64,000 nt of DNA from Methylotenera sp. (GTDB lineage: Bacteria > Pseudomonadota > Gammaproteobacteria > Burkholderiales > Methylophilaceae): positions 62,001 to 126,000 of the forward strand of contig JAUSAG010000009.1 in the NCBI GenBank assembly GCA_030652995.1, given 5' to 3'. This document shows positions 11,019 through 16,576 of this stretch, one piece after another. Made by a program: the position numbers and the translations under genes. Under the pieces are notes generated by a model. It was not told the DNA's origin. It did not search any database and worked only from the letters and a program-made list of their open reading frames with translations. Each line of letters opens with the position of its first letter. Positions within the stretch are counted from its first letter, which is position 1.

Positions 11019-11094
<76 letters not shown>

Positions 11095-11174
11095 AAATAG
11101 TTAAAAATTAATTTTAAATTAAGCAGTAAGTTGTAGTAAAATGTTGCACTTGTAACAAAGCAGTAAAATCTTAG

Positions 11175-11250
11175 GTCCCCATCGTCTAGAGGCCTAGGAC
11201 ACCTCCCTTTCACGGAGGCGACCCGGGTTCGAATCCCGGTGGGGACGCCA
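11175..11250 (+). tRNA. tRNA-Glu (anticodon TTC)
   Basis: A 76 nt cloverleaf with encoded GCCA end. The acceptor GTCCCCA pairs with TGGGGAC, the anticodon loop CTTTCAC has TTC at 34-36, and the T arm is CCGGGTTCGAATCCCGG. It lies 80 nt after tRNA-Ala and is probably co-transcribed. Confidence 0.98.
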
Positions 11251-11277: not shown

Positions 11278-11310
11278 AAGGCCTTGTATATCAAGGCCTT
11301 TTTTGTTTTT
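11278..11310 (+). terminator. Rho-independent terminator after the tRNAs
   Basis: A 9 bp perfect stem AAGGCCTTG / CAAGGCCTT with a TATAT loop is followed by TTTTGTTTTTT, 27 nt after tRNA-Glu. Confidence 0.9.
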
Positions 11311-11606
11311 TGCGACTACGCCAAGCAACACTACACCAAGCAATTAAGTAGTTGCGACTATTCTGTAGCAATTTCAAATAATTAAATACACCTCAAATCT
11401 AATTACTTACCATTTACGTGATACCACTATATGAATGCAAGTAAAAGTAGCATAGCGTCAACAGTATCGAAATCGAACGCAGTTTTCTTTTTTTTAATTT
11501 CACGATTCTAGTTACAATAATTAACGTTACGCTTTGAATTAAAAAAGATAAACGGATTAAATAAGATAAACACACAGTTTTTTAGCACTGAATTTGGCGG
11601 ATAAAA
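11311..11606. other. Intergenic region before the J-domain cluster
   Basis: About 296 bp of A+T-rich DNA between the tRNA terminator and the J-domain gene. It presumably carries the cluster's promoter, but no match good enough to name is visible. No frame or repeat is convincing. Confidence 0.4.
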
Positions 11607-11888
11607 TTGAAAGATTACTACGCAGTTTTAGGTATTTCAGCAAATGCTACCTTAGCTGAAATAAAAACGACTTACCGCAGAATGGCCACTCAATTCCATC
11701 CTGACAAAAACACATCAATTGATGCGCCTGCAAAGTTCAGAATAGTGCAGGAAGCTTATGAAGTGCTTTCTGATGTTGATAAAAGAAAAGCATTTGACGA
11801 AAACCGCAGGCGTAGCCTATTGGATAGCCCGATAGACACAGCCCATGAAATTTGGCAGAACTACTTTAATGGAATATTGAAAAAATGA
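11607..11888 (+). CDS. Minimal J-domain (DnaJ-like) protein
   Basis: A 93-residue protein that is almost only a J domain (about 2-66). The start KDYYAVLGISANAT is standard and the Hsp70-activating HPD is at 31-33, followed by EAYEVLSD and the helix IV region DKRKAFDE. There is no G/F linker, zinc finger or client-binding domain, so it should act as a dedicated DnaK cochaperone with specificity from its short C-terminal tail or its partners. The start codon is TTG, chosen because J proteins begin exactly at this MKDYY position and a GGCGG lies upstream. Its stop overlaps the next start (ATGA), implying translational coupling and a shared role. Confidence 0.85.
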   Translation: MKDYYAVLGISANATLAEIKTTYRRMATQFHPDKNTSIDAPAKFRIVQEAYEVLSDVDKRKAFDENRRRSLLDSPIDTAHEIWQNYFNGILKK

Positions 11889-12376
11889 GAATATCGCGCT
11901 ACTTCACTGACTTAATGGCCACTTATGTGGCCGACATTGATGACTTAAAAACTGACTCAGGTGGTGATGATGTCCTCGATGAGCGTCTTGTAGAAAAACG
12001 CTCGCAGATATCAGATTTAATACCTATGATTAAAACCAACCCTGAAATGTTAGCGGTTGTTTTTCATAGAAGTGTGGTAGTGAAAAAGCCAGAAGTGATC
12101 TTGAGCTATCTTGATAAAGAGCCTGCCAAGTTCCCTGCGTGGGACAGCATCTCTTCTAGCGTTCAGTTTGCCCCTTGGGCAATTGATCTGGTTGCTAAAC
12201 TAAAAACTGAGGTTGGTGGTGAGCAATGTTTATTAACCACAGTGATGCTCGAGCATTTGTATGCGCTGTATGAGGTGAGTGAAGATGCAGCGGAAGAAAT
12301 GGAAACAGAAGAGTCGGACGACCTAGCCGAGTCAGGTGGCGAATGGCTATCTGAGCATGGGTTTGACAGTCATTAA
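11885..12376 (+). CDS. Unknown acidic protein, coupled to J-domain gene
   Basis: I do not recognise this 163-residue protein. It is soluble, without a signal peptide or membrane segment, mainly helical, and has a strongly acidic C-terminus (about 128-150, rich in Glu and Asp: 'EDAAEEMETEESDDLAES'). The start overlaps the J-domain stop by 4 nt, so the two should be made together; it is a natural candidate client, adaptor or partner of that cochaperone. The Asp-rich segment near residue 20 (ADIDDLKTDSGGDD) is also noticeable. No nuclease, protease or nucleotide-binding motif is visible. Confidence 0.75.
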   Translation: MRISRYFTDLMATYVADIDDLKTDSGGDDVLDERLVEKRSQISDLIPMIKTNPEMLAVVFHRSVVVKKPEVILSYLDKEPAKFPAWDSISSSVQFAPWAIDLVAKLKTEVGGEQCLLTTVMLEHLYALYEVSEDAAEEMETEESDDLAESGGEWLSEHGFDSH

Positions 12377-12432
12377 AGCCCAGTATTTAGTCAACTTTAG
12401 TAAATGCCCTGTATTTATTCAATAGGATAAAC

Positions 12433-13107
12433 ATGACAAATTTAGTCGTTGTACAAGCACGTAGCCTTATTCAATCGGGCGATATCGTAAGCGCAGAAGC
12501 TTTACTCACAGCGCTAGTGGAAACCGATGGTGATCACGCTCTGGTTGAAGTGCTTGATGAAATGCCATCAAAAGACCTGCTAGCGGTTATCCGTGAATAT
12601 GATTCATCTAAGCAGTCACTTTTAAATTTGTTAATTACCCCTGAGCAGTTTGCACGCGTCGTGGTTTTAGATCGACTCTATAAAGATATGTCACACGAGC
12701 ATCTGCGTGGCATGATCAACTCTGTGCTGTTTCGAGAAGATGCCGATGCTAACGAATTTATCGAGGCCATCGCTGAACTTGAGTTTGGTTATGAGACCTT
12801 GGCAGATTATCTTTCAGATCGTGCTGAAGAAGTCACGGGCGATACTTTTGCGGCACTTGATACAGATGATATTACGCGCGCGGAGATTAGTGATCATGAC
12901 TGGAAAGAACTGACTTGGTTGCTCCGTCATAACCACTCTGATATTTACAATATTGTTCATGCCTTATTAAAGACAAAACTTCAGGATAAATTGATTTCTG
13001 AAATTGCGCATGCTGCTGAAGATGATGATGATGAAGTCGTTGTAAATGCGGATCCGGTAGCAAAAGTAACTAGGGGCGATGATGAGGACGAAGACTCTGC
13101 AATTTAA
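12433..13107 (+). CDS. Unknown helical protein, third gene of J-domain cluster
   Basis: A 224-residue soluble helical protein with no firm family assignment. Residues about 42-110 (DEMPSKDLLAVIREYD, then a LITPEQFARVVVLDRLY segment) have the pattern of helical repeats seen in DUF6178 and in MgtE N-terminal-like domains. That is a weak resemblance by eye. The tail (about 195-224) is very acidic (AEDDDDEVVV, then GDDEDEDSAI). It starts 56 nt after the previous gene with an AGGA ribosome site and is followed 47 nt later by the fourth gene, so the four probably form one operon. Confidence 0.75.
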   Translation: MTNLVVVQARSLIQSGDIVSAEALLTALVETDGDHALVEVLDEMPSKDLLAVIREYDSSKQSLLNLLITPEQFARVVVLDRLYKDMSHEHLRGMINSVLFREDADANEFIEAIAELEFGYETLADYLSDRAEEVTGDTFAALDTDDITRAEISDHDWKELTWLLRHNHSDIYNIVHALLKTKLQDKLISEIAHAAEDDDDEVVVNADPVAKVTRGDDEDEDSAI

Positions 13108-13154
13108 GTAACATTCTTTATATGCGTAATCTTTTCATCATTAAATAGCCACTT

Positions 13155-14402
13155 ATGACCTCTGCTAAAAATACACAATCTATTGCAGCATACGATAATG
13201 CACCTTATTTTGAAAAAGCGTTTAGGCATGCCGTTCAGCACAGTTACGTTGATCAAACACGTATTGATGCAATTATCGATGAGGCGGCCACAGGATCTGT
13301 TCAAATAGCCGATTATTTTGGAGAGTCTTCGCACTTAAGAAAAAACCTGGAAGTGTCCATGACGCGCATGGTCAGTTTAGTTAGTTTGTATCTTGAGGAC
13401 ACAACGGATGCTGAGCTGGATAAAGCCGCACAGTTATTAAAAGAAAAACCATTTCGAGCACTGTCACGCGGTGGTTCGCAAATGCTAAAAGCGCTGTACT
13501 GCCTTCCAGAAGATGATTACTTTGGCTCACCCCGACTAGATTCTGAGCGTGAGTTTCTTAAAAAATGTTTAAGTAAAAAGCAGTCTGTTACCAAATATAG
13601 GCAAACTTTGACAGACTGTGAACGATTTAAAAAAAATATTGATTTTGCCACCCTCTTGGCCAAAAGGGTTGGAGCATCTATCAATCAACTGCATGAGCAT
13701 CACGCGCCTGCTGAACATGTTATTCGCACAGCTTTGTTATCGTTGGCGTATGGTACAAAAAAAATACAGGCGAACAAAGCGCATCCTTATAATGAAGCTG
13801 GCTTATTTGAAACCTTTAGTGCCATTCGCAAAGAGTATGAGTTTTTAGGTGATGTGACTTGCAAAGCCAATTTTATACAAGAATTACCACTAGCATTTCA
13901 AGACGAGGCAATCAGCGTTCTATCAAGCATTAACAAAGACGATATCCCTAAAATAGTTAATCAATCCGTCACACTGGAATCTGCTTTCAGCGATCTGAAA
14001 GACCGAAAGTACTTTTACATTCGTGACCAATTGAATGAAGTGAGTCGATTCGATCAAAGGCTGGCGACAGACTGGTCTGCACTTACGGGAGGGGCTGAAG
14101 ATGATGTATTGTTGCTCACATTACTTCTATGCACAGCTGCAGGCGTCCCTCAAAAGACTATGTTAAAAAGAAATGAAGCTAAAAAAGCAGTATTAAGCAT
14201 TCGTGAAAATGGTCTTATGCAAAACGCGGTGCTTAATCTCATTGAAAAAGCACCACACGATGAAGTGGACCAACTTAGATCGTTGTGGGATGACTTCATT
14301 GATGAAGCTACACCGTTTTTATTAGACGATTCAGATGAGAAGTTAAATGAGGTTATGACCTATCTGGCTGATCGCTGCAACATTCAAAAACCACAGCAGT
14401 AA
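13155..14402 (+). CDS. Unknown 415-residue protein, last gene of J-domain cluster
   Basis: I do not recognise this protein. It is soluble and almost wholly alpha-helical by its hydrophobic spacing, with no signal peptide or membrane segment. It contains a basic middle region (about 120-160, FLKKCLSKKQSVTKYR) and a HEHHAP segment near 190. The N-terminus (AYDNAPYFEKAFRHAVQHSY) is aromatic-rich and looks conserved. No Walker, HD, DEDD or zinc motif is evident. It closes the four-gene row that starts with the J-domain gene, and its neighbour downstream is convergent amtB. Confidence 0.75.
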   Translation: MTSAKNTQSIAAYDNAPYFEKAFRHAVQHSYVDQTRIDAIIDEAATGSVQIADYFGESSHLRKNLEVSMTRMVSLVSLYLEDTTDAELDKAAQLLKEKPFRALSRGGSQMLKALYCLPEDDYFGSPRLDSEREFLKKCLSKKQSVTKYRQTLTDCERFKKNIDFATLLAKRVGASINQLHEHHAPAEHVIRTALLSLAYGTKKIQANKAHPYNEAGLFETFSAIRKEYEFLGDVTCKANFIQELPLAFQDEAISVLSSINKDDIPKIVNQSVTLESAFSDLKDRKYFYIRDQLNEVSRFDQRLATDWSALTGGAEDDVLLLTLLLCTAAGVPQKTMLKRNEAKKAVLSIRENGLMQNAVLNLIEKAPHDEVDQLRSLWDDFIDEATPFLLDDSDEKLNEVMTYLADRCNIQKPQQ

Positions 14403-14525
14403 TAGGCTGATTATTGCAATTGCCAACGGAACCATCTGGACAAGATATTTCCATTACCTCTACTGCCTGGAATTGATACTAGGCTTGTTTAGGCAAAAGG
14501 TGCTAAGTGAATTTAAATCGAATCA

Positions 14526-15901: not shown

Positions 15902-16576
15902 CTAGAGCAGAATATTGCCTGAGCCGTCTTTAAGTACCATATTTGCTGCGTCTGGGTTACCTGACCAAAAATGATAAAACTCGCGCACGACGACTAAAAA
16001 TAAACGCCTGTTTTGCTTGATATTAAAAAGCGGGAGCGTTAGGTCAACCGCAATGCGATAAGCTTTGTGATTTTTTTCAGGTGCATTTCTAAGGCGTATC
16101 AATATGACTTTAGCAAGCTTGACCCGGGTATCTACAGTGACTTGCTCCGCGCCTTCATGACGTAGCGCTTGCGTATAAGCCTTGAGTGGCCAATTTTCTG
16201 AAGTATCAAACTTTTCAGTTTCCAAACTATCGGTGAGTGACTTTAAAGAGGCATAACCTGGTTTCCACCTTGATGGATGGATATCAAAACCAGGGTTGAT
16301 ATTCAACGCTGCAATCGCTTTAATATCTTTCACCCAGAATAAGTAGAACTCACGTGCTGCAGTCAGGTTTTCATGCCAATCATCAGCCGGAATCGTTTCC
16401 ATCACCTCTTCTATCACTAGCCGATATTCACCACCATCCAGTGTTTTACCAGCGAGCCCGCTACTCAATTTATCTAAAAATAATGCACGCCTATGTAGCA
16501 CAGCACTTGTAGCGCCTTTTGCTTGCAAAAGTTTTAAATAAGCATTGATGGCTTCTTTTTCACGCATTTCATTCAT
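15902..16576 (-). CDS. Unknown protein with internal duplication
   Basis: A 224-residue soluble protein I cannot assign. It is built of two related halves of about 70 residues: AYLKLLQAKGAT at 12-23 and REFYLFW at 75-81 match AYTQALRHEGAE at 133-144 and REFYHFW at 198-204, with nearly equal spacing (63 and 65). Each half looks like a four-helix unit, vaguely like the SAM-like N-terminal domain of tyrosine recombinases but without any catalytic domain. It is divergent from pilU, 138 bp apart. An alternative start is Met4. Confidence 0.7.
   Translation of the reverse strand: MNEMREKEAINAYLKLLQAKGATSAVLHRRALFLDKLSSGLAGKTLDGGEYRLVIEEVMETIPADDWHENLTAAREFYLFWVKDIKAIAALNINPGFDIHPSRWKPGYASLKSLTDSLETEKFDTSENWPLKAYTQALRHEGAEQVTVDTRVKLAKVILIRLRNAPEKNHKAYRIAVDLTLPLFNIKQNRRLFLVVVREFYHFWSGNPDAANMVLKDGSGNILL

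Follow-up and report, generated by a model that had tools for sequence, protein, structure and literature searches.

A divergent operon of Methylotenera sp. that very probably corresponds to atcJABC

The question raised by this locus is whether a small J-protein gene, together with the three genes of unfamiliar sequence that follow it, forms a new chaperone system or belongs to a system that has already been described. In this study, the cluster was analyzed within a stretch of 64,000 nucleotides from Methylotenera sp., hereafter called the window. An earlier note had read the four genes as a dedicated DnaK-recruiting complex with three new subunits. The cluster itself proved to be real, and the reading frames, the shared plus strand, the ATGA overlap and the gaps of 56 and 47 bp were as described there (Table 1). 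The proteins of 224 and 415 residues were likewise all-helical in AlphaFold models, bar a few single-residue bridges, and the acidic tails attributed to two of the partners were present in the window. Among the four proteins, the J protein alone gave a Pfam match above the cut-off (DnaJ, 3.1e-23, residues 3-64). The terminator-like hairpin behind the upstream tRNA pair suggests that the operon may start downstream of it, and the interval from 11300 to 11607 contained no listed promoter-like site.

Table 1. Features of the operon and its upstream flank, in positions of the window
Feature	Position	Strand	Description
Terminator-like hairpin 3' of upstream tRNA pair	11278-11300	+	Pattern match only
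atcJ homologue	11607-11888	+	93 aa, TTG start; J domain with HPD and C-terminal tail P75-x7-W83
AtcJ tail end, residues 75-93	11829-11885	+	Conserved block; putative AtcC-docking role
atcA homologue	11885-12376	+	163 aa; start overlaps the atcJ stop (ATGA); acidic linker followed by the conserved motif W-L-x3-GFD near the end
atcB homologue	12433-13107	+	224 aa; 56 bp gap upstream; helical body, tail ending EDSAI
atcC homologue	13155-14402	+	415 aa; 47 bp gap upstream
AtcC C-terminal module, about residues 318-415	14106-14399	+	Resembles the middle module, about residues 188-281

The answer reached here, for the identity of the genes and their docking scheme taken together, is that the four genes very probably constitute a divergent betaproteobacterial atcJABC operon. 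The operon of that name in Shewanella oneidensis (SO_1850, SO_1849, SO_1848 and SO_1846) was described by Maillot et al. 2019 (PMC6715715), who showed that the J domain of AtcJ functions with DnaK, that the AtcJ tail binds AtcC (Kd 7 nM for AtcJ), that AtcC binds AtcB, and that growth at low temperature is strongly reduced without J, B or C and not without A. The window shares with it the gene order, the close or overlapping genes, the three partners without known domains and a J protein of almost the same size (93 residues against 94 in S. oneidensis) that also carries a C-terminal tail. The window differs in that its proteins fall far below the NCBIfam cut-offs, its AtcC has 415 residues with an added C-terminal module against the 297 positions of the NCBIfam AtcC model, and its AtcA and AtcB carry different end motifs; the gene-by-gene likeness was measured on reference loci with an AtcC above the cut-off, standing in for the S. 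oneidensis sequences.

The first line of evidence came from the NCBIfam models. The window J protein matched the AtcJ model at 1e-16 (residues 3-87 over model positions 3-93), and several generic DnaJ models outscored it for the J domain. The second protein matched AtcA at 0.05, ranking behind the unrelated MzaB at 0.038, whereas the third and fourth matched AtcB at 0.0028 and AtcC at 0.00026, respectively. Weak as they are, these matches fall in the known operon order, AtcJ-AtcA-AtcB-AtcC. The curated cut-offs of NF050028, NF047888, NF047889 and NF047890 were all missed (61.2 of 150, 13.4 of 200, 17.1 of 440 and 20.6 of 370 bits), so the four proteins are homologues that stand outside these narrow equivalog families. 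Moreover, the same models recurred among relatives of the window proteins. The AtcC model matched all 11 C relatives (best 5.9e-9), any other model matching at most one of them, and the AtcJ model matched 12 of 12 J relatives. The AtcB model matched 8 of 11 B relatives (best 4.8e-4), as did an unrelated manganese catalase model (best 0.0019), and the AtcA model matched 5 of 12 A relatives (best 2.7e-4), with MzaB reaching 2 of 12. In a draw of 369 genomes of the class, the window was the sole match of the AtcC model.

The second line of evidence was the comparison of profiles. Reference loci were those with an AtcC above the NCBIfam cut-off, namely 3 from a draw of 398 genomes of the phylum and 4 from a draw of 79 genomes, the family of one of the phylum-draw genomes that carried such an AtcC; one locus was shared, which left six in total. 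A divergent set comprised 7 loci fetched of the 9 divergent AtcC matches in the 79-genome family. The six reference and seven divergent loci all carried J-A-B-C on one strand in the same order. Window-type profiles were built from 50-51 sequences each and compared all-against-all with the six-locus reference profiles. Nine repeated contigs, sequences interrupted by runs of X (in L018, the B protein), C genes with an open end (L022 and L044) and identical sequences were left out before the counts, and J proteins whose reading frame opened upstream were shortened to start at a codon further in. Four of the 16 profile pairs matched, always between corresponding proteins (J 1.6e-21, A 1e-6, B 4.2e-4 and C 5.6e-9); the other 12 gave E 0.06 or worse and serve as the control, since these E-values refer to single pairs. 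For AtcB, the hhalign probability against the reference profile was 14.6%. Against the divergent set, the window-type profiles matched at 6.5e-24 for J, 1e-6 for A and 4.7e-5 for B; the window-type AtcC gave no direct match to the divergent AtcC profile (E 0.065), and the reference and divergent AtcC profiles matched each other at 1.3e-5. PDB and Pfam sequence searches of the three partner proteins returned nothing above the cut-off where a cut-off was shown, and a search for SeqA over 70 genomes of the class, intended to locate an enterobacterial point of departure, found none. At the level of profiles, the homology of the operon to atcJABC can be regarded as established, with AtcB as the weakest single case, and the idea of three new subunits has to be given up, the partners being homologues of AtcA, AtcB and AtcC. 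The window operon is a real and coherent system of an already described kind.

The divergent set is also an observation in its own right, as a second Atc type (L083 and L099-L104) within one family of the same class. Its J protein had 86 residues in 5 of 7 loci after start choice, its AtcB had 215 residues, and its AtcC carried an acidic stretch close to the C-terminus.

The J protein had been described as only a J domain. Its HPD motif is indeed intact, and was kept in all 51 window-type J proteins and in all 13 of the reference and divergent sets, but a separate conserved tail follows the residues matched by Pfam. The P-x7-W motif of this tail was found in the same 51 and 13 proteins without exception, and it was absent from the corresponding stretch of all three controls (the DnaJ of the organism, its HscB-like protein and E. 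coli DnaJ). Window-type tails have the sequence DENRRRSLLD and then P-x7-W-xx-Y, with minor variation; DP-x7-W-xx-F/Y stands in the six reference tails, and the seven divergent tails have DP-x7-W without the F/Y. Weber et al. 2023 reportedly described AtcJ-like proteins of beta- and gammaproteobacteria with this tail, which they are said to have named PX7W, and with atcA, atcB and atcC in the operon; the window fits this description. The name PX7W occurred in none of the papers listed by a text search.

The J matches found in the window genome were DnaJ, an HscB-like protein and AtcJ, with no others. The DnaK gene adjoins DnaJ, and the further J match, which lies below the Pfam cut-off, sits beside a second HSP70 gene; by position, we infer that this pair is HscB and HscA. 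The isc operon offers a parallel, HscB-HscA-IscU being a case of a J protein dedicated to a co-encoded client or scaffold, as a passage of PMC6715715 notes. No kinship of the partners of the window J protein to that system was found, however, and the HscB-like match sits elsewhere in the genome.

The AtcC of the window type is longer than that of the other sets. Residues 8-327 align to the whole of the 297-residue reference AtcC, and the remaining stretch of about 90 residues is extra. Complete AtcC proteins had at least 404 residues in 51 of 51 window-type cases versus 296-316 in 13 of 13 reference or divergent ones, the C of 537 residues in L084 reflecting an upstream start chosen by the script. 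In a profile comparison, residues 300-415 scored 31.4 against residues 130-300, whereas 100 column shuffles gave a mean of 12.3 (sd 2.2, maximum 20.4); the module reversed, or set against other helical families, scored 8 to 16, and against the N-terminal stretch it scored 21.8 (E 0.0046). The C-terminal module is therefore likely to be a duplicate of the middle module, its score standing well above the shuffles, and it is possibly new. The AlphaFold model of AtcC (pLDDT 88.7, pTM 0.65) was nearly all helical, and Foldseek against PDB found nothing at E 0.001 or below (best 2.1). A Pfam scan of 46 C relatives gave weak matches. By number, the strongest was DUF6178, found in 12 members (best 0.0021); by E-value it was phage Mu GemA, found in 2 (best 2.2e-5). 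A single rescan of 30 of the 46 placed GemA at residues 195-251 of L067 (25.8 bits against a cut-off of 27) and at residues 189-234 of L065 (16.5 bits); both matches cover the middle module and lie below the Pfam cut-off, so that this module no more than approaches the GemA family in these two relatives.

AtcA and AtcB carry fixed motifs at or near their ends. The motif [WFY][LM]-x3-GF[DE] lay close to the end of AtcA in all 50 window-type proteins, and the last five residues of AtcB were [DE][DE]SA[IL] in all 51. Both differ from the ends of the reference set; for AtcB, these were D[DE]MFSFLD in 6 of 6 reference proteins and TDDMFAPL in 7 of 7 divergent ones. The AtcB linker before the motif is of changeable acidity, its D+E fraction ranging from 0.15 to 0.54 and its net charge being negative in 33 of 33, values taken from 33 of the 51 proteins, the pattern having missed the other 18. 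In the AlphaFold model of AtcB (pLDDT 79.0), residues 200-224 fell below 50, and the tail is probably disordered. The earlier note had supposed that such acidic tails might be segments resembling DnaK or nucleic-acid mimics. This found no support: the parts of the tails that stay fixed are the end motifs and the acidity of the B linker varies, so an acidic mimic is held to be unlikely, with the constant net negative charge leaving it some room. In each Atc type the linker varies and is followed by an end that is fixed in a form peculiar to that type, a pattern that looks more like docking peptides than charge mimicry. The fixed ends on AtcA and AtcB are possibly new.

The helical body of AtcB gave no PDB match at E 0.001 or below in Foldseek (best 0.14). 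Its helices were weakly alike to the cytosolic N domain of MgtE (Foldseek probability 0.82, but E 0.40), and Pfam MgtE_N was the commonest match among 45 B relatives (10 of 45, best 0.03). This kinship was set aside as not significant, a hint of fold only.

Carriers of the operon were, by record titles, Methylotenera and other Methylophilaceae, Collimonas, Glaciimonas, Herminiimonas, Herbaspirillum and Undibacterium, together with other Oxalobacteraceae and Rhodocyclales or Burkholderiales bins. With the window C protein as query, matches were found in 10 of 25 same-genus genomes, among them that of the window, and in 2 of 16 further genomes of the order. Within the family of the window, A, B and C occurred in the same 6 of 100 genomes, and the operon was absent from 93 of the 100, some of them complete, so it is dispensable for life in this family. 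One further genome of the family, G855, held a C fragment, which was rejected as a stand-alone module since it stops 6 bases short of the contig end. This patchy presence and the varied genomic places, together with the extra module of AtcC and the AtcA and AtcB ends unlike those of the reference set, would agree with a retooled atcJABC homologue, in which the docking of the J tail on AtcC delivers DnaK to a different client and the job is not growth in the cold. The spacing of the docking tail and all four genes are kept, however, and some carriers belong to cold-linked genera such as Glaciimonas; on balance, we regard such retooling as rather unlikely.

The genomic places differ in a way that bears on mobility. 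The operon has smc, tRNA-Ala/Glu and amt as neighbours in the window and in two close relatives, L014 and L027, and tRNA-Asn in L016, L017, L019 and L033 (21 loci were scanned for tRNAs); in the window (tRNAs at 11019-11250) and in the latter four it stands just 3' of the tRNA genes, and in L021 and L040 the tRNA-Ala/Glu pair is on the opposite side. Six same-genus genomes, of which five lack the operon and one has it elsewhere, retain the amt side, but the approximately 4 kb read past amt in them showed neither smc nor a tRNA. From the varied places and the joint presence, the four genes seem to move together or to be lost together. A defence or stress island that is mobile and makes use of a J protein only by chance would account for the neighbouring tRNA genes and the differing places; no integrase- or defence-like gene, however, was noticed among the nearby genes read, and the GC content of the operon (0.415) is close to that of the window (0.434), which leaves this explanation very improbable.

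Two observations concern the amt side itself. In L014 (4511-5143) and L027 (7046-7591), a gene of the pagP family, coding for a lipid A palmitoyltransferase (Pfam 4e-67 and 1.7e-67), lies between atcC and amt, as do small genes. In the window, about 62 bp at 14412-14473 match the 3' end of such a gene, and this remnant suggests that the pagP stretch was lost here. Moreover, a protein of 224 residues is encoded at 15902-16576 (-), between amt and what is presumably a pilus-type ATPase gene; it is conserved beside amt in six same-genus genomes, and neither Pfam nor NCBIfam gave a match at E 1.

Linkage to the J gene is conserved in relatives. Of 61 relative loci, 9 of them repeats of a contig already counted, 60 carried all four genes in the same order, which is not a chance arrangement; the exception, L040, starts 36 bp before B. 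When named genomes were scanned with the B family, 49 loci were obtained, 48 of them with the four genes on one strand and in order, and the 49th on a contig that starts at B. The stop of the J gene lay in ATGA in 40 of 48 loci. In the remaining 8 it lay in TTGA or GTGA, where TTG or GTG could serve as the start. A J protein doing general DnaK work upstream of an unrelated A-B-C operon, to which the higher scores of generic DnaJ models would be congenial, is hardly credible and was rejected, linkage and co-occurrence being too strict, with the order kept in all 48 testable named loci, the J stop placed at the overlap, A, B and C either all found or all missing in a given genome of the survey, apart from the C fragment of G855, and the J tail conserved beyond the J domain.

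With the divergent atcJABC operon as the preferred reading, a mechanism may be proposed by analogy. The small J protein would engage DnaK through its J domain and would dock on AtcC by its P-x7-W tail, AtcC would hold AtcB, and the assembly of J, AtcC and AtcB could bring DnaK to a specific target. We infer that the contacts described in S. oneidensis would also be made in Methylotenera. The core of the earlier proposal, a dedicated complex of a J protein and its partners that recruits DnaK, thus holds by homology, as atcJABC was shown to be such a complex in S. oneidensis (PMC6715715) and the linkage is conserved; that the complex is new does not hold. For the target, RNA polymerase reached via AtcB is the best current candidate, a contact of AtcB with RNA polymerase being mentioned in a passage of the report of a November 2020 meeting (PMC7871303), and no full paper on this contact stood among the best-ranked literature matches. 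This is the least sure step of the scheme, its source being that meeting report only, and we would give it somewhat less than an even chance.

In conclusion, it is reasonably probable, by analogy, that the operon serves growth in the cold in Methylotenera. More doubtful is the thought that the betaproteobacterial branch might form a distinct variant, in which an AtcC with a second middle module and an AtcA and AtcB with docking peptides of their own would link DnaK to another target, either in addition to the one used in Shewanella or in its place. Four genes that had stood as unknown become a named and testable chaperone network. By record titles, this Atc network extends to genomes of Methylophilaceae, Oxalobacteraceae and Rhodocyclales type, and the end motifs of AtcA and AtcB, together with the added module of AtcC, provide precise points at which it can be cut.
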